Assembly: GCA_018333455.1 (NCBI GenBank)
Contig: JAGXTN010000049.1
Span: 1-63,434 of the forward strand
Reading direction: 5' to 3'
Length of the DNA: 63,434 nucleotides
Source of the DNA: Dethiobacter sp.
Lineage (GTDB): Bacteria > Bacillota > Dethiobacteria > Dethiobacterales > Dethiobacteraceae
Within the stretch, counting starts at the first letter, position 1. Every line of letters begins with the position of its first letter. The notes under the pieces are model-generated. The model ran no database searches. It was not told the DNA's origin and saw nothing but the letters and a program-made list of their open reading frames with translations. The translations under genes and the position numbers were made by a program. This document shows, piece by piece, positions 10,596 to 44,160 of the stretch.

Positions 10596-10625
10596 CTGGT
10601 TAGAGTAATTATGGAGGTGTATTTG

Positions 10626-10895
10626 ATGGAATCAAGCAGCACCAAGCAAAAAATCAGTATTTATTTAGATGACCCAGAGTTGCGCCGAAGGTTGAAAGTG
10701 GCTGCAGCAATGCGTGATATCAGTATCAGTGCCTTTTGCGAAGAGGCTATTAGGGAAAAACTGCAAAAAGAAGAAGTAAATACAGCCCTTGAGGCTGCGA
10801 GACGGGCGGCTCGTCGCTTAGACGAGAAGCGGGATAAACTCGGCTCGCTGGACGTGCAAACATGGGAGCTAGTGAAGGAGGGGCGTCGGCGATGA
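10626..10895 (+). CDS. Ribbon-helix-helix antitoxin of a VapBC-like module
   Basis: The ATG at 10626 lies 6 nt after GGAGGTG, giving 89 aa; an ATG at 10611 overlaps that site. The N-terminal KQKISIYLDDPELRRRLKVAAAMRDISISAFCEEAIREKL is a typical Arc/CopG-type ribbon-helix-helix, followed by a basic helical tail (ALEAARRAARRLDEKRDK) that would cap the toxin. Its stop overlaps the toxin start as ATGA, the usual translational coupling in type II systems. It is expected to neutralise the PIN nuclease and repress its own promoter. Confidence 0.8.
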   Translation: MESSSTKQKISIYLDDPELRRRLKVAAAMRDISISAFCEEAIREKLQKEEVNTALEAARRAARRLDEKRDKLGSLDVQTWELVKEGRRR

Positions 10896-11326
10896 AAGGT
10901 GCGGTGGTAGATGCTTCCGTATCCTTAAAATGGCTATTTAATGATGAAGTAGGTGTTTCGCAAGCGCAGGCTTTACGTGATAGCTACCTTGCTGACCCAA
11001 TAAGGTTTCCACTTTTTGCCCCATCCCTCTGGCGATATGAAGTTGCAAATGGTTTAGCGGTTGCCGCCAGACGAGGTCTCTTAGAACATGATTTAGCCCG
11101 AGACGCTCTGATGGATCTTTTGACGCTCGGAGTAAAGGTGGTTGAAACTGAAAGCCTACGTGTTTTAGATCTGGCCTTGACCTATGGCATTGCCGTATAC
11201 GACGCTGCATATTTGGCAGTAGCAGAGGAAACAAGCAGTATTTTATGGACTGCCGACAGGCCGTTTTATGGCGCTATGCAAGGGAAGCGACAAGCTGTCT
11301 GTTGGATTGAGGACTGGACGTATTAA
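10892..11326 (+). CDS. PIN-domain ribonuclease toxin (VapC-like)
   Basis: The start is ATG 10892, behind GGAGGGG and overlapping the antitoxin stop (ATGA), giving 144 aa. Conserved PIN acidic residues are visible: VVDASVSLKWL (Asp6), WRYEVANGL (Glu), VYDAAYLAVAEE (Asp) and TADRPF (Asp near the end). PIN toxins cleave tRNA or rRNA when released from the antitoxin. All four acidic positions are present, so the toxin looks intact. It is convergent with panD, 122 bp away. Confidence 0.87.
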   Translation: MKGAVVDASVSLKWLFNDEVGVSQAQALRDSYLADPIRFPLFAPSLWRYEVANGLAVAARRGLLEHDLARDALMDLLTLGVKVVETESLRVLDLALTYGIAVYDAAYLAVAEETSSILWTADRPFYGAMQGKRQAVCWIEDWTY

Positions 11327-11448: not shown

Positions 11449-11814
11449 TCACTCGCTGTCTTTGATGGCTATAATTGCGTTTTTTTCATTGACGGAGAGA
11501 ATTCTGGGTTTAAAGGTTCTTGCCTCGCTTTCGGCTACCTGAACGTATGAAATAATAATAATAATATCTCCTGGCTGGACAAGACGGGCAGCAGCGCCGT
11601 TGAGACAGATGGTGCCTGTGCCCCGTTTGCCTTTGATGGTGTAAGTTTCAAAGCGCGCACCATTATTATTGTTGACAATTTGGACTTGCTCATAAGGAAG
11701 CAGGTCAGCAGCATCCATCAAGTCCTCATCAATGGTTATGCTGCCAACATAGTTCAGGTTGGCGTCAGTAACAGTTGCCCTATGGATTTTCGATTTACAC
11801 ATTGTACGTAGCAT
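11449..11814 (-). CDS. panD: Aspartate 1-decarboxylase
   Basis: This 121-aa proenzyme converts L-aspartate to beta-alanine, the second substrate of PanC. It is self-cleaved at Gly24-Ser25 to create the pyruvoyl group; NYVGSITID is present at exactly that position. Other family marks are [34 protein letters not shown] and [23 protein letters not shown] lies 8 nt before the ATG, inside the end of panC, 3 nt away. It is the last gene of the pan operon. Confidence 0.97.
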
Positions 11815-11817
11815 TAG

Positions 11818-12663
11818 TTAAACCTCCACGATGATGTTATCAATTAATCGGGTTTTGCCGAAGCGGACCGCCAAAGCAATGAGTATCCGGCCGCTTATTT
11901 TTTTTACCGGTCTGATTTCTTCTGTATCCACTATACTGACATAATCAATCGTTGCCAAGGGTTCGGAGGAAATTTCTTTGACGATAAAGGCTTGAATAGC
12001 TGAGGCGTCTCGTTGTCCGCCTTGGATTTTTTCCGACACTTGCAGGAGAGTTTGGAAGAGAATGAGTGCTGCCCTCCTTTCTGCCGGAGAGAGGTAGCTG
12101 TTACGGGAGCTCATGGCCAAGCCATCAGCCTCACGAACGGTAGGCATGATGTGCACCAATACATTCATGTTCAGGTCTCTGACCATCCTTTGAATCACTA
12201 ATGCCTGCTGAGCGTCTTTTTGCCCAAAGTAGGCATTGTCTGGAATGACAATGTTAAAAAGTTTTGCTACTACTGTGGTGACACCGCGAAAGTGATGGGG
12301 ACGTGACGCACCGCAGAGCCCTGCCGTTAAGCGTTCCACATCTACATAGGTGGCATATCCTTGAGGATACATTTCTTTAACCGTAGGGGCAAAAATTATG
12401 TGGCCACCGGCTTTTTCAACTTGAACCGCATCACTTTCAAGGTCACGAGGATATTCTTCGTAATCTTCGCCAACACCGAATTGGAGAGGGTTCACAAAAA
12501 TACTAAGGATGGTTAACCCGTTTTCTGCTCTGGCTTTGGCGAGGAGAGCTAAGTGGCCCTGGTGCAGACAGCCCATGGTGGGCACAAGGCCAACCAGTTT
12601 GCCATGAGAGCGGGCTTCTTTTACACGTGCTCTCAGCATGCTAATCTCCCGGATGATTTCCAT
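11818..12663 (-). CDS. panC: Pantothenate synthetase
   Basis: This 281-aa ligase joins pantoate and beta-alanine using ATP. Signatures are VPTMGCLHQGHLALL (the HxGH nucleotide motif), SIFVNPLQFG, the DNAYFGQKDAQQALVI segment and SSRNSYLSPAER (KMSKS-like region). Length is typical. The start ATG shares its A with the panB stop (TAATG), so translation is coupled, and AGGGAG lies in the end of panB. Confidence 0.97.
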   Translation of the reverse strand: MEIIREISMLRARVKEARSHGKLVGLVPTMGCLHQGHLALLAKARAENGLTILSIFVNPLQFGVGEDYEEYPRDLESDAVQVEKAGGHIIFAPTVKEMYPQGYATYVDVERLTAGLCGASRPHHFRGVTTVVAKLFNIVIPDNAYFGQKDAQQALVIQRMVRDLNMNVLVHIMPTVREADGLAMSSRNSYLSPAERRAALILFQTLLQVSEKIQGGQRDASAIQAFIVKEISSEPLATIDYVSIVDTEEIRPVKKISGRILIALAVRFGKTRLIDNIIVEV

Positions 12664-13505
12664 TAGAACTTCTCCCTCAGTCTCTCGATGATGTTTTCGT
12701 CCATGGTAAAGGTATGCTCTGGTGCGGGGAAGGCGGCATCCTTTACTTCTTTAGCATAGGCACGCATTGCGTCTACCATTGGGTGATAAAACTGGCCAAA
12801 TTGTTTTACAAACTTGGGACGAAGCTCGGTTTGCAGACCAAGAATGTCATGGTAGACAAGTACTTGCCCATCACAATATACTCCTGCGCCAATACCAATG
12901 GTGGGAATAGTAATTTTTTCGGTAATAAGTTGGCCTAGCTGCCAAGGGATGCCTTCCAACACCACCGCGCAGGCGCCTGCATCTTCTAATGCTAGCGCGT
13001 CTTTCAGTAATTGTCTGGCCATGCGCTCGTTTTTCCCCTGAACGACAAAGCCTCCCATCTGACCCACCGATTGAGGAGTAAGACCAATATGACCGACTAC
13101 GGGAATACCGGCTCGAACAATTTTTTCAACAGTTTTAGCCATCTCTTCTCCGCCCTCCAACTTCACGGCAGGGGCACCAGTTTCCTGGATTGCCCGGCCG
13201 GCGTTGCGCAGAGCATCTTCTTTTGTAACTTGGTAGGTCATAAAAGGTAAGTCGATAACTACCATGGCCCGTTTGGCAGCTCGCACGACCGCTTTGCCAT
13301 GATGAATCATCTCAGCCAATGTAACGCCAAGCGTATTTTCATAGCCCAACACCACCATACCCAGTGAATCTCCCACGAGGATCATTTCCATACCAGCATC
13401 ATCGGCCACCTTCGCGGAAGCATAGTCGTAAGCTGTGGCCATAGTTATTTTCTCTTTGTTTTCTTTCATGCCGGCAAGCGTCAGAGTTGTTATCCTTTTC
13501 GTCAC
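12663..13505 (-). CDS. panB: 3-methyl-2-oxobutanoate hydroxymethyltransferase
   Basis: This 280-aa TIM-barrel enzyme makes ketopantoate from alpha-ketoisovalerate and methylene-tetrahydrofolate. Motifs include MATAYDYASAKVADDAGMEMILVGDSLGMVVLGYE, VVIDLPFMTY, AVKLEGG, VGHIGLTPQSV and TIGIGAG. The start is GTG at 13505 behind GGAGGTGA and overlaps the stop of the DUF2520 gene as GTGA. The product flows to the reductase encoded just upstream and then to PanC. Confidence 0.97.
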   Translation of the reverse strand: MTKRITTLTLAGMKENKEKITMATAYDYASAKVADDAGMEMILVGDSLGMVVLGYENTLGVTLAEMIHHGKAVVRAAKRAMVVIDLPFMTYQVTKEDALRNAGRAIQETGAPAVKLEGGEEMAKTVEKIVRAGIPVVGHIGLTPQSVGQMGGFVVQGKNERMARQLLKDALALEDAGACAVVLEGIPWQLGQLITEKITIPTIGIGAGVYCDGQVLVYHDILGLQTELRPKFVKQFGQFYHPMVDAMRAYAKEVKDAAFPAPEHTFTMDENIIERLREKF

Positions 13506-14374
13506 TGCATCTCACCTCCAAGATATTGTAATAGCTTTTGGCGCTCTGTGTCGCCAAGTGTTCCTTTAGCAGTCGCCAATTCTACCGTTGCTAAGCCAAG
13601 AAATTTGTAAAACGGCATTAGTTCCGGAAGTTTCTTTTCCAAGGCCGAAAGATGTATTTTTACCGTGGATGCGTCGCCGCGAGCAATAGGACCGGTGAGA
13701 GCCCCGGTTGGACCGACACGTTTGATATTTTTTAAAGTCCCCTCAATCAGGGGATACAGGGCCGGCAGACCGTCATCTCTGCAGACACCGGCGGCTTCCA
13801 TGACCTGCAACGCTTCTTCAATCAAAGTTGCAAAGTAATTGCAGGCGATGCAGGCGGCAGCGTGATAGAGCGGCTTTGCGGCGGTAGGTATCTCAAGCAG
13901 TTTACATCCTAACTCTTCCACCAGTTGACGGGCAACAGGCAACGCTTTCTCATGTCCTTCTACGGCAATATAAGAACCAGGAAGATTCTGAATACCAGCA
14001 TCAGGATTAGCAAATGTCTGTAGTGGATGAAAAGATAACGGGTATGCGCCATTTAAACTGGCGCTCTCCAAGATGGTGGAACTGTGAGCACCACTGGTAT
14101 GCGCGACGATGGCGCCGGCAGAAAAACCGTTTTGGGAAACAATCTGCTCGCAAACTTCCACCACGACTCTGTCTGGAGTGGTAAGAAAAATTACTTCTGC
14201 TTGCCTGGTAAAGGCAAGTAGGTCTGTGCTGTGGGCAACATTCACACGTTGGGCTGCAGAAGCAGCCGAGGCTGCGCTAAAACTGGCAATCCCGGTGAGC
14301 TGATGACCGGCACCCTTAAAGAGAACGGCCAAGGCAGTACCAACATTGCCGGCACCAATAATAGCAATACGCAT
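13502..14374 (-). CDS. Rossmann-like/DUF2520 protein, probable PanG-type ketopantoate reductase
   Basis: ATG 14374 follows AAGGAGG by 6 nt and gives 290 aa. The N-terminus MRIAIIGAGNVGTALAVLF is an NAD(P) Rossmann motif, then VIFLTTPD and the DUF2520-type YPLSFHPLQTFANP, HAAACIACNYFATLIEEA and GPTGALTGPIARGD. This two-domain family was described as the alternative ketopantoate reductase PanG in bacteria lacking PanE (recalled literature, not checked here). As first gene of panB-C-D, where no panE is seen, it is well placed for the ketopantoate-to-pantoate step. Some relatives are only annotated as F420-binding-like oxidoreductases. Confidence 0.85.
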   Translation of the reverse strand: MRIAIIGAGNVGTALAVLFKGAGHQLTGIASFSAASAASAAQRVNVAHSTDLLAFTRQAEVIFLTTPDRVVVEVCEQIVSQNGFSAGAIVAHTSGAHSSTILESASLNGAYPLSFHPLQTFANPDAGIQNLPGSYIAVEGHEKALPVARQLVEELGCKLLEIPTAAKPLYHAAACIACNYFATLIEEALQVMEAAGVCRDDGLPALYPLIEGTLKNIKRVGPTGALTGPIARGDASTVKIHLSALEKKLPELMPFYKFLGLATVELATAKGTLGDTERQKLLQYLGGEMQ

Positions 14375-14572
14375 GGGCCACCTCCTTGTGAAAATTTTCC
14401 CTGGCAATACAGACAATGCCTTCTGACCAAGTCAGAAGGCATTTGCATACATAGTCCCGCCCTTTCTGTCCCGGTCCGGGTCTGGATCCAAGCAGTATTT
14501 GGGAATCTCTAATTTTGCATTAACTTTCAGAAGACACTGAGGTGCGACTCGCCGAAACAATGCCACCCTCAG
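14375..14572 (-). ncRNA. Structured leader of the pan operon, candidate cis-regulatory RNA
   Basis: From the promoter at 14577-14605 about 200 nt are transcribed before the first start. Hairpin 1 (14537-14572) pairs CTGAGG.TG with CACCTCAG around one bulge, with a 19-nt loop. Hairpin 2 (14415-14443) is a 12-bp perfect stem with loop CTTGG. Hairpin 1 contains CACCTC (14544-14539), complementary to the GAGGTG of the ribosome site (14384-14379), so opening hairpin 1 could free an anti-SD strand. No U-run follows hairpin 2, so a translational rather than transcriptional switch is inferred. It may belong to the known pan motif or be new. Confidence 0.45.
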
Positions 14573-14576
14573 CCCC

Positions 14577-14605
14577 ATTGTAACATAAGCTATTCCAGGT
14601 GACAA
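14577..14605 (-). promoter_or_regulatory. Promoter of the pan operon
   Basis: On the minus strand TTGTCA and TACAAT with a 17-bp spacer and an extended TG before the -10. It overlaps the 3' end of the upstream aminopeptidase gene, so the pan operon has its own start site near 14570. Confidence 0.7.
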
Positions 14606-15606
14606 GGAAAGATTTCTCGCATCTCAAGAGGGGCAGACAGAAATGCTTTTAATAATTTAAGCGCATGCTCCAAATCTTCTAAATCAACCATTTCACCTGG
14701 TGTATGGACATAGCGGCAGGGTATGGAAATAACTCCGGCAGGAATCCCTTCTTTTGTCAAGTGGATGGCGCCGGCATCTGTCCCTCCCGCTGTAAGAACC
14801 TCGTACTGGTAGGGGATTTCATTCTTTTCTGCTATTTCACTAAGCATTTCTTTAAGACGTGGATGACAAATGACGGAAGCGTCCTTAATCTTAACGGTGG
14901 GACCCTTGCCGAGAGAAACGCTCATGGTTGGCGCCTCCGGTGTGTCACCCACCATGGTGACATCAACGGCAAGGCCCAAATCAGGGTTAATCCGGTAAGT
15001 AGATACCCGAGAGCCGCGCAAGCCCACTTCTTCCTGAGAAGTAAAGACGGCGTAAACTTCGTTATCCGTTATAGCCAGTTCCTGGATAGCTTTGACAAGA
15101 ACTGCGCAGCCTGCGCGATTGTCCATGGCTTTACCAATCATGCGGTTGCCAACTACTGCCACCTCACGATGATATGTAGCAATATCTCCAACCTTGACGT
15201 ACTTACTGGCCTCCTCTTTGGTTGTGGCACCGATATCAATAAAGAGTTTCTCCAGAGTCAATTTATTAAGCTCCTCAAGTTTTTCCATGCCGATCGTGCC
15301 TTGGCTGCCATTTGCGAAAATCACTCGTTGACCAAGCAGTACATGGGGGGAAAGGCCTCCCACATTGCTAAAGCGTAAAAACCCTTTGTCATCAAGATGG
15401 GTGACAATCATGCCGATTTCATCCATATGGGCGGCTACCATTATTTTAGCGCCGTTTCCTTTTTTCACCGCATAAAGATTACCCATGTTGTCAGTGTAAG
15501 TCTCGTCCACATAGTCTTTGATCTCTTCACGAATAACCCGGGCGATTTGTGCCTCCCTACCTGATGGCCCATATGTTTCGCTCAATTTCTTAAGCAATTC
15601 CTTCAA
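14590..15606 (-). CDS. M42 family metallo-aminopeptidase (paralogue 3 of 3)
   Basis: This 338-aa dinuclear-metal peptidase has the M42 ligand set: AAHMDEIGMIV, AMDNRAGCAVL, TSQEEVGLRG, a VDVTMVGD aspartate and the C-terminal CRYVHTPGE histidine. M42 enzymes form dodecameric tetrahedral aminopeptidases acting on oligopeptides. The start is TTG 15606, behind AAGGAGGG inside the end of the preceding paralogue (17-bp overlap). Third gene of a tandem triplet that would be co-transcribed. Confidence 0.93.
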   Translation of the reverse strand: MKELLKKLSETYGPSGREAQIARVIREEIKDYVDETYTDNMGNLYAVKKGNGAKIMVAAHMDEIGMIVTHLDDKGFLRFSNVGGLSPHVLLGQRVIFANGSQGTIGMEKLEELNKLTLEKLFIDIGATTKEEASKYVKVGDIATYHREVAVVGNRMIGKAMDNRAGCAVLVKAIQELAITDNEVYAVFTSQEEVGLRGSRVSTYRINPDLGLAVDVTMVGDTPEAPTMSVSLGKGPTVKIKDASVICHPRLKEMLSEIAEKNEIPYQYEVLTAGGTDAGAIHLTKEGIPAGVISIPCRYVHTPGEMVDLEDLEHALKLLKAFLSAPLEMREIFPCHLE

Positions 15607-16624
15607 GACGCAACCCTCCTTCTGCTACAGCATTTAAGATTCCTCTGGCCAAGCGCAGTGTGTTTTGCCAATCATCCAGATTGATGATCGATGCGGGAGA
15701 ATGAATATAGCGGCAAGGGATAGAAATTACAGCGCTCAGGATGCCGGCATGAGTCTGTGAGATAATGCCGGCATCGGTGCCGGCTGTAGTTAAGCGCCGA
15801 AACTGGTACGGGATATTCAGCTTCTCTGCCGTTTCCACTACTAAATCCACAATTTGTTGCGGCGCGATATATGTTGAGTCCATCAGAGTAAGGGCAGGGC
15901 CATCACCAAGCTTTGTCACATAAGCCGATTCCTTGCTGCCCACCACATCGGCCGCGGCAGTAGTTTCAATCACCAACGCCAAATCAGGATGAAGGCGATA
16001 GGCGGCCACACCGGCGCCCCTTAAACCCACTTCCTCTTGAACTGTAAACACGGCGTTCAACTCCAAGGCGAACTCTTCTTTCAGCAGCTCCGCGAGAACC
16101 GCGCAGCCTGCGCGATTGTCAAAAGCTTTACCGATCAAGCAATTATCCCCCGCTTCCCTTGCCGTTACAGTAAAGGTGCCATAGTCACCAATTTTTACCA
16201 GCTTTTCCGCTTCCTCTTGGCTGCGCACACCAAGGTCAATGTAGAGGTTGTCAATTTTGATGGCTTTAGTCCGTTCATCTGGCTTTTGCAAATGTACGGC
16301 TTTAGCGCCAATGACGCCCGGGACACGGTCTTTTCCTATGGCCACCACTTTAGACGCCAAGACACGGTCGTCAATGCTACCTACTTTGGCAACTCGCAGC
16401 AAACCGCTTTTCTCATAACCAACCACCATTAGGCCGACTTCATCCATATGGGCGACTACCATCACCCGCGGTTTGCGGCCAATCCCTTTTTTAAAGTAGA
16501 GATTGCCAAGAGCATCGGTTGTGACCTCCTCCGCGTGAAGAGCCAATTCTTCTTTTAAGAGTGAACGCACTTCACCTTCGTCGCCCGAAGCACCGCTTGC
16601 TTCTGAGAGTCGTTTTAGCAACAT
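15590..16624 (-). CDS. M42 family metallo-aminopeptidase (paralogue 2 of 3)
   Basis: 344 aa with the same ligand pattern: VVAHMDEVGLMV, AFDNRAGCAVL, TVQEEVGLRG, VIETTAAADV and CRYIHSPAS. All metal and catalytic residues appear present. GGAGGG lies before the ATG at 16624, within the last codons of the upstream paralogue (10-bp overlap). The replacement of VDVT by IETT at the metal-Asp region, where Glu substitutes for Asp, is the main visible difference from its neighbours and may alter metal or specificity. Confidence 0.93.
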   Translation of the reverse strand: MLLKRLSEASGASGDEGEVRSLLKEELALHAEEVTTDALGNLYFKKGIGRKPRVMVVAHMDEVGLMVVGYEKSGLLRVAKVGSIDDRVLASKVVAIGKDRVPGVIGAKAVHLQKPDERTKAIKIDNLYIDLGVRSQEEAEKLVKIGDYGTFTVTAREAGDNCLIGKAFDNRAGCAVLAELLKEEFALELNAVFTVQEEVGLRGAGVAAYRLHPDLALVIETTAAADVVGSKESAYVTKLGDGPALTLMDSTYIAPQQIVDLVVETAEKLNIPYQFRRLTTAGTDAGIISQTHAGILSAVISIPCRYIHSPASIINLDDWQNTLRLARGILNAVAEGGLRLEGIA

Positions 16625-17673
16625 GACAATCCCTCCACAAATTCCAAATCTACGCTGGCGATGAAATAGGCGAGAAGCCGGCCGGAAAGCTTTAGGTCAT
16701 CCATGTCCAAGAGCTCCACAGACGTGTGCATGTAACGTAGTGGAATGGAGAGCAGGCCGGTGGGAATCCCTCCCCGTGTTACTTGGATAGCGCGAGCATC
16801 GGTTCCGGTAGGCCCCGGAAAGGCTTCCAGTTGATACGGCAGCCGATATTCCTTGGCAACACGAATGATTTCCTCACTGATTTTAGTGTGGATGTTTGGC
16901 CCCACAGTAATGCCCGGACCTTTGCCAAGCTTACATGCTTCATGTTCTAAAACACCGGGCATTTCCCCATGCGTCACATCTACGGCGATGCCAAGATCGG
17001 GGACTATACCATATGTTGCCATGGCAGCGCCGCGGACGCCCACCTCTTCTTGCACCGTAGCCACGGCATACACATCCGCCTCGTGCCGCAAGCGTTCCAA
17101 CTCCTGCAGGCAGGAGAGCAGCACTGCCACCCCTGCTCGGTCATCCATCGCTTTGGCCGCCACAGTGTTGCCGGCAAGCTGAATCAACTCACGGCGAATC
17201 AGCGCCAAATCACCCACTGATACCAGCTTTCTCACTCTTTCTTCCGTCAAAGCGATATCAATATGTAAGTCCTCCATTTTATGTCCTTTGCCCAGTTCCT
17301 CTGCAGGGACCAGATGCGGTGGCTTTACACCGATAACCCCGGGAAGCTTTTCTCTGCCATAGAGAATCACTTCTTGCCCCACAATGGTACGCGGGTCAAT
17401 GCCGCCCACTGCGGAAAAGCGCAGGAAACCGCCTTCTTCTATTTTTGTGACCATTAAGCCGATTTCATCCATGTGAGCAGCCAAAAGAATGCGCGGCCGC
17501 CTCTCGGCACTACTGCTGCCTTTTTTTAAAAAAACCACATTGCCCATCCTGTCTTGTCTTACTTCATCGACATGAGAGCAAAACGCCGCTCTGACAACCT
17601 TAGCCACGTATTCCTCATAACCGGACACGCCCGGCGCTTCGCAAATATCTTTTAAAAATCGCTTGATTTCCAA
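16615..17673 (-). CDS. M42 family metallo-aminopeptidase (paralogue 1 of 3)
   Basis: The start is TTG 17673, 6-7 nt after a GGGGGG site, giving 352 aa; an ATG at 17718 has no ribosome site. The metal ligands are LAAHMDEIGLMV, AMDDRAGVAVL, TVQEEVGVRG, AVDVTHG and LRYMHTSVE, and the substrate-site GPTGTDARAI is present. First gene of the tandem triplet. M42 subunits can form mixed oligomers, so hetero-complexes among the three are possible (inference). Confidence 0.93.
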   Translation of the reverse strand: MEIKRFLKDICEAPGVSGYEEYVAKVVRAAFCSHVDEVRQDRMGNVVFLKKGSSSAERRPRILLAAHMDEIGLMVTKIEEGGFLRFSAVGGIDPRTIVGQEVILYGREKLPGVIGVKPPHLVPAEELGKGHKMEDLHIDIALTEERVRKLVSVGDLALIRRELIQLAGNTVAAKAMDDRAGVAVLLSCLQELERLRHEADVYAVATVQEEVGVRGAAMATYGIVPDLGIAVDVTHGEMPGVLEHEACKLGKGPGITVGPNIHTKISEEIIRVAKEYRLPYQLEAFPGPTGTDARAIQVTRGGIPTGLLSIPLRYMHTSVELLDMDDLKLSGRLLAYFIASVDLEFVEGLSCC

Positions 17674-17797
17674 AGAAGTACCCCCTATTTTGCAAACATT
17701 AACAACAAGCAACTTCAACGTTCTGCCAGTTTTTCCTCTAATTATATTATCCCCATTTTTTTCTCCCTAAAAAGAAGCAGCTCTAACAACAGAAATA

Positions 17798-43266: not shown

Positions 43267-43301
43267 AAAAAAGTGGGAGCTAAAACTGCTCCCACTTTTT
43301 T
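43267..43301. terminator. Bidirectional terminator between yqeY and sleB
   Basis: A 14-bp perfect stem with A6 and T6 at the base of each arm and a 7-nt loop. It overlaps the sleB stop codon. Confidence 0.93.
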
Positions 43302-44019
43302 ACTTAAAGAAGACATGATTGCCAATAGTTACTGTAACTGGACGGCTTCGTACCCACTGATTACTAGTTTTAGCCGGGTTGTAAAACCCTGTGGCTCCGC
43401 CTGTGGGGTCAGCGCCGCTTAATGCTTCCGCAATAGCTAGTTTGGCAGTTTCTCCGGCGGGTTTATTAATTCGTCCGTCAAGGACAGGACTATATTGATA
43501 TTTGCCGCCTACCACCTGATATACTACGCCGCTCAAGCTGTTAGGGAACGATTCACTGCGAATGCGATTCAGAATTGAGGCAGCCACTGCCACCTGCCCT
43601 GCAAATCCTTCTCCTGACGCTTCCGCATACACAATTCTAGCGAACAGATCCATCTCAGTTGCAGTAAAATTAAATTCGTCGCTCACGGCGGATGAGACAG
43701 CAGTTTCTGCCGCTTTGCTAATCATTTCCTTAATCAGTTCGATAGTTTCTTCATCTGCCAAGCCATCTGCCGGCAAGCCGTTTTCTGCTTGGAAGCGCAT
43801 TAGGCTAGCGCTGGTTAACGGACCGAAAACACCGTCTAGATGACCTTCCCGATAACCTTTTTCATTGAGGAACATTTGCAATTCCAACACATCTTGACCG
43901 CGGCTACCCATCAGGATTGGACGACTTCCGAGAGTTGCGGCCTCTGCCGTCGCACCGACAGTAAATAAGAGAATTAATGTGACAACCAAAAGATTATTCA
44001 CTTTCATTTTGTTAAACAT
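43300..44019 (-). CDS. sleB: SleB-like spore/cell-wall hydrolase
   Basis: 239 aa. A signal peptide (NNLLVVTLILLFTVGATAEAA) leads to a peptidoglycan-binding domain (RGQDVLELQMFLNEKGY, DGVFGPLTSASLMRFQAENGL) and the SleB/hydrolase_2 domain (DLFARIVYAEASGEGFAGQVAVAASILNRI, with the catalytic Glu; VGGKYQYSPV; TGFYNPAKTS). SleB is a lytic transglycosylase acting on spore cortex. AAGGAGG lies 7 nt before the ATG. Expression is probably controlled by the c-di-AMP riboswitch just upstream. Confidence 0.92.
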   Translation of the reverse strand: MFNKMKVNNLLVVTLILLFTVGATAEAATLGSRPILMGSRGQDVLELQMFLNEKGYREGHLDGVFGPLTSASLMRFQAENGLPADGLADEETIELIKEMISKAAETAVSSAVSDEFNFTATEMDLFARIVYAEASGEGFAGQVAVAASILNRIRSESFPNSLSGVVYQVVGGKYQYSPVLDGRINKPAGETAKLAIAEALSGADPTGGATGFYNPAKTSNQWVRSRPVTVTIGNHVFFK

Positions 44020-44035
44020 ACGTATTCCTCCTTTT

Positions 44036-44160
44036 TGCCTCCGGGGTTAGCTGACGGGTTTGGGCAGGAGCGCCCCACCTCTCTAAAAGGTTTCACCCCA
44101 CTATGGTGGGCCCCCCGTACCCCCTCATATGAGAGGGATTCGGCTTGCTACGCATGTGCT
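44036..44160 (-). ncRNA. c-di-AMP (ydaO/yuaA) riboswitch upstream of sleB
   Basis: The minus-strand leader carries the family's conserved blocks in order: GCCGAATCC (44144-44136), GGGGG with CCCACC, GGGGTGAAACC (44099-44089), GGGGCGCTCC, then CCCGTCAGCTAACC (44058-44045) and a closing CCGG. This matches the ydaO pseudoknot consensus. It ends about 20 nt before the sleB start. ydaO riboswitches are off-switches that lower wall-hydrolase and osmolyte-transport expression at high c-di-AMP. Confidence 0.88.

Follow-up and report, generated by a model that had tools for sequence, protein, structure and literature searches.

The leader RNA of the pantothenate operon in the window (the whole 63,434-nt stretch of Dethiobacter sp. 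DNA that was analysed) is a genuine, ordinary member of the known pan motif, and judging from the sequence evidence laid out below it probably serves as a feedback attenuator of this operon, working through a terminator and a competing antiterminator. The covariance model search with the Rfam pan family (RF01749), a check put forward in the initial annotation, placed the leader above the gathering cut-off (Table 1), and this match is the sole one in the window genome. Since the score exceeds the cut-off, the leader is not a new class, and the choice which that annotation had left between the described pan motif and a distinct riboswitch class falls to the former; the annotation was right, too, in taking the leader for a cis-regulatory element of the pantothenate operon. 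As in the pan motif generally, two tandem stems with conserved bulged A residues, the criterion for pan RNAs, are found in the alignment of the window to the model and lie upstream of panB/C/D genes. The first half has bulged A residues at 14561 and 14543 and a local extension (CUGAGG/CCUCAG), with CUGAGG(G)UG pairing with CACCUCAG, while the second half has its bulged A residues at 14487 and 14469 and base pairs formed by CUG (14495-14493) and CAG (14468-14466). The leader fold has a z-score of −2.56, with 1/200 shuffles being equally stable. The pan motif was described by Weinberg et al. (2010; PMC2864571), who suggested a dimeric protein as a partner and whose main text gives no terminator, antiterminator or ribosome-site switch for pan. 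Later transcriptome papers merely list the element, and in the literature searched, which covered few subscription journals, we found no paper on the pan expression platform, nor is a ligand or protein partner of pan published in the searchable papers. In the Rfam model the 3' tail is unpaired and the model ends before the downstream hairpin, whereas the leader as conserved here includes both of them.

The extended -10 promoter that had been proposed to overlap the preceding gene and to leave a leader of about 200 nt was found as stated: it matches the consensus at 10/12 positions, with TG preceding the second hexamer, its -35 box is still inside the 3' part of the M42 peptidase gene before it (14590-15606, minus strand), and the predicted transcript start at about 14571 is approximately 195 nt from the ATG at 14374. 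A -10-like TA(A/C)AAT recurs immediately 5' of the pan motif in the relatives. The operon order behind the window pan RNA is DUF2520-panB-panC-panD. A clear panE was not found in the window genome (assembly 93.5% complete), where the ApbA match considered as PanE turned out to be glycerol-3-phosphate dehydrogenase, and the DUF2520 gene product is likely to be the ketopantoate reductase. Three consecutive M42-type peptidase genes (14590-17718, minus strand; Pfam supports the first, and sequence resemblance the second and third) lie upstream of the pan operon, and an M42-like gene also adjoins the pan RNA of locus L025. Just downstream of panD, on the opposite strand, is a probable toxin-antitoxin pair (10611-11326, plus strand) consisting of a ribbon-helix-helix-like protein and a PIN-domain protein. 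Elsewhere in the window there is a c-di-AMP riboswitch (RF00379, 78.8 bits) at 44021-44155 on the minus strand, and the gene directly behind it (43300-44019) reads as a peptidoglycan-binding cell-wall hydrolase.

Table 1. Features of the pan leader and the pantothenate operon in the window
Feature	Coordinates	Strand	Basis or remarks
Promoter TTGTCA-17-TACAAT, extended -10 (TG)	14577..14605	-	consensus match
-35 box TTGTCA	14605-14600	-	spacer of 17 nt to -10 box TACAAT (14582-14577)
Pan motif RF01749, whole	14462..14569	-	45.3 bits, gathering 36.2, E 1.2e-4 (scan of whole window)
Pan half 1 (hairpin 1 of the initial annotation)	14537..14572	-	RF01749 alignment, fold
Pan half 2 stem	14466..14495	-	RF01749 alignment, fold
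Putative switch strand, pan 3' tail CAGAAAGGGC	14459..14468	-	overlaps base of half 2
Terminator-type hairpin (hairpin 2 of the initial annotation)	14415..14443	-	13 pairs, top terminator-like site
Weak U-tract GUCUGUAUUG after hairpin	14405..14414	-	sequence
Shine-Dalgarno AAGGAGGUG	14379..14386	-	sequence
DUF2520/Rossmann protein, probable ketopantoate reductase	13502..14374	-	PF10728 E 4e-37, PF10727 E 4e-22
panB	12663..13505	-	TIGR00222, 354.8 bits
panC	11818..12663	-	TIGR00018, 351.2 bits
panD	11449..11814	-	TIGR00223, 179.4 bits

The downstream hairpin (AAUGCCUUCUGAC-UUG-GUCAGAAGGCAUU) lies outside the RF01749 model and has a 3-nt loop. The perfect stem noted initially stands, although it is slightly longer than the 12 bp given for it. 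The hairpin is conserved in the window's class, with the consensus GCCUUCYUG(A/C)C-loop-G(U/G)CAGRAGGC, and compensatory changes are found at pair 1 (G-C to A-U), pair 7 (U-A to C-G), pair 8 (G-C to U-A) and pair 9 (A-U to G-C), as counted on folded hairpins which were themselves selected by folding. In most loci of the class U-rich sequence follows 3' of the hairpin, and the terminator scan accepts the window site although its U-tract GUCUGUAUUG is weak, while the U-tract is good in most relatives, such as UUUUUAAUG in L002 from the window's family. In the genus members L001, L006, L008 and L017 the hairpin is perfect in 4/4 and the U-tracts are weak, and the same four have an extra A in the tail which forces a bulge in the pairing of tail and hairpin arm. 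The hairpin sequence is present as a single copy in the 2.26-Mb genome, even when allowing for three mismatches, which rules out a mobile repeat, and a microRNA-like identity was rejected, with the match to mir-378 far under its cut-off. We reinterpret this hairpin, initially taken for a riboswitch part to which no particular role was given, as being of the terminator type; in the window copy, either factor-assisted termination may persist or the mechanism may have drifted.

In the mechanism we propose, the second pan stem would close via the CUG:CAG pairs, with CAG and the following nucleotides constituting a switch strand that would mimic the 3' arm of the downstream hairpin. With the pan fold closed, by a putative ligand or protein reporting sufficient pantothenate or CoA, the hairpin would be free to form and transcription would stop (OFF), whereas with the base of the second stem open the switch strand would pair with GCCUUCUG, the hairpin's 5' arm, while the 3' arm has yet to be transcribed, giving an antiterminator (ON). 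The CUG:CAG pairs that close half 2, together with the bulged A beside them, share nucleotides with the tail, so that stabilising the pan fold is predicted to promote termination, a polarity in keeping with feedback repression of genes for biosynthesis and uptake. For the nascent transcript without the 3' arm, model estimates with constraints set by us put the closed-pan and antiterminator states a median of 0.1 kcal/mol apart in 118 loci, with a difference of +0.6 kcal/mol in the window; such near-equal energies suit a switch, while the finished hairpin wins at equilibrium, and hence antitermination must be kinetic. We infer that termination takes place, that the bound state is OFF and what the nature of the signal is, and also that the window leader continues to act as an attenuator in spite of its weak U-tract. 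As in attenuators and riboswitches with mutually exclusive terminators and antiterminators, the sensor stem of pan overlaps a strand predicted to compete with the terminator arm, the differences being that pan is without a known ligand or protein and that the U-tract in the window is weak.

Pan RNAs scoring above the cut-off were found in 29/80 relatives, 33/98 genomes of the class and 139/398 genomes of the phylum, and the leaders of the 143 pan loci collected were read. Hairpins resembling terminators, with −8 kcal/mol or below, were present within about 80 nt downstream of the pan motif in 122/142 pan loci (86%) versus 12.5% of dinucleotide shuffles, and at −12 kcal/mol in 69% of loci versus 1.6% of shuffles. 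Automatic terminator picking went astray at a small number of loci, among them L006 and L051. Conservation extends to the tail in the Rfam model (GGGACAGAAGG), the last nucleotides of which are unpaired there, and this tail is complementary to the terminator 5' arm. In the window, tail and terminator 5' arm form a duplex of −10.1 kcal/mol with a 2-nt bulge, and no upstream stretch of the leader complements the arm as well as the tail does. When complementarity was profiled along each leader, it was likewise highest at the tail (−10.4 kcal/mol, versus values mostly of about −3 to −6 in the segments upstream), with those that already overlap half 2 reaching −6.9. The tail-arm duplexes had a mean of −10.4 kcal/mol when matched versus −8.8 (sd 0.33) when permuted over 48 families (0/2000 permutations as good), and this was also seen with divergent tails alone (34 families, 3/5000) and with loci outside the window's class (0/5000), bearing in mind that permutation between families leaves shared ancestry partly in place. 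A linker used as control gave no signal, and changed tail/arm pairs can be recognised by eye in L051 (ACGAAUGCG/CGCAUUUGU), L100 (GUGAAGG/CCUUCAC) and L056 (CGGGUA/UACCCG). There was no detectable tail-arm covariation within the window's class (37 loci, 1699/5000 permutations as good), as both strands hardly vary there, nor in f1 alone (2842/5000), and none was detectable in f5. The predicted alternative pairing that excludes the terminator is thus supported by covariation at the level of the phylum, while its presence in the window is suggested by complementarity, conservation and the family-wide pattern.

The same tail appears to have a second partner in the Bacillaceae, for which we used 350 nt upstream of 80 named panB loci (L144-L223), relatives of the Bacillus pumilus-group sequence L052. 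The automatic terminator screen was passed by 54/76 distinct leaders, although in a few of them, such as L198, L199 and L212, the hairpin is doubtful and the tail hardly pairs with it. The Bacillus pumilus group has no recognisable terminator, and in most Peribacillus leaders it is either missing or doubtful. Ahead of the ribosome site lies a conserved CAUCUCCUCU-type block, kept also in the Bacillus pumilus group and in most Peribacillus, which complements both the Shine-Dalgarno sequence and the pan tail. The tail (AGAGGGAUGA...) covaries with this anti-Shine-Dalgarno block (UCAUCUCCUCU) before panB, with duplexes of −18.3 kcal/mol versus −15.2 (sd 0.48) when permuted (26 distinct leaders, 0/5000), and changed pairs are exemplified by L154 (GACAAUAAUC/GAUUAGUUGUC). 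This covariation indicates that a Shine-Dalgarno switch does exist in Bacillaceae pan leaders, albeit not through the pairing proposed earlier. With a terminator and an anti-Shine-Dalgarno sequence that complements the tail, these leaders resemble riboswitch leaders acting on both termination and the ribosome site, from which the window's clade differs in having the terminator-type hairpin only; no CCUCC-type anti-Shine-Dalgarno block was seen by eye ahead of the ribosome site in leaders of this clade. On balance we favour the reading that the pan 3' tail is one general switch strand, directed at the terminator arm across the Bacillota and in the Bacillaceae also at the anti-Shine-Dalgarno sequence, with the bound state being off.

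The translational switch that the initial annotation envisaged, in which opening of the pan fold frees CACCUC of half 1 to pair with the ribosome-site GAGGUG and so block translation, did not hold up and is in our view very improbable. Its starting observation was accurate, as CACCUC (14544-14539) is exactly complementary over six bases to GAGGUG (14384-14379), with a duplex of −10.8 kcal/mol, but the pairing is not conserved even within the genus (L008, AAGGAGGC), nor in the family, where the Shine-Dalgarno sequence reads AAGGAGGUCG in L002, GGAGGCG in L003 and GGAGGAAA in L010, and where L019 lacks the pairing as well. The Shine-Dalgarno side of the pairing is of the ordinary kind and varies freely across genus and family, while CACC is conserved because it is paired inside pan half 1. 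Over 40 families, in some of which start codons are misassigned, 117/2000 permutations were as good as the matched pairs. Judged by the condition that the initial annotation itself had set, a lack of conservation of the CACCTC-GAGGTG pairing in related operons, this proposal is refuted.

A more serious contender, though an unlikely one, is that the terminator has decayed in the window's genus, with pan regulating otherwise and the hairpin now being a factor-dependent terminator or pause site, a stabiliser of the mRNA, or nothing at all. The poor U-tracts in all four genus members, next to the good ones in relatives from the same family, are in line with this, but each of these four has a stem without mismatches and a tail that retains its complementarity to the arm (−10.1 to −12.5 kcal/mol where computed), and neither the intact stem nor the retained complementarity is expected of a vestige. 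The tail may also be conserved for being part of the binding site of pan, with the terminator having evolved a resemblance to it and no antiterminator involved, which would agree with the conservation of the tail in the Rfam model and with the missing covariation inside the class. We consider this improbable given that tail and arm covary across 48 families, and also where the tails are divergent, and given that the same strand independently covaries with the anti-Shine-Dalgarno sequence in Bacillaceae.

Vitamin B5 synthesis in many Firmicutes is under pan RNAs, for which no mechanism has been described in the searchable literature. If the attenuator reading with a general switch strand is correct, an RNA class that has been an orphan since 2010 gains a predicted mechanism and polarity, for transcription as well as translation, and given the predicted switch strand and its polarity, a simple termination assay can be used to address the question of the ligand. 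The genes behind pan RNAs encode DUF2520/Rossmann proteins, PanB, PanC, and ECF, sodium/bile-acid (PanS-like) and BioY transporters, the commonest first genes being Rossmann-like (62/108 scanned) and DUF2520 (40/108), with many of these genes truncated. Pan RNAs also precede genes for PanS-like sodium/bile-acid, BioY, ECF and OPT transporters and for a BirA-type biotin ligase (L082, L089, L098, L109, L118, L125, L132, L141, L048 and L117), which suggests a wider pantothenate/CoA regulon, and the presence of DUF2520 proteins, PanS-like, ECF and BioY transporters and biotin ligase behind pan provides hints to the functions of unassigned proteins. One genome (G026) has two pan RNAs (L028 and L065), the DUF2520 gene being preceded by one and panD, directly, by the other. 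The leader and operon start of L110, from a different family (genome G282), are near-identical to those of the window's genus; the contig carrying this locus is 4.5 kb long and is assigned to a distant genome, which points to either misbinning or a recent transfer.
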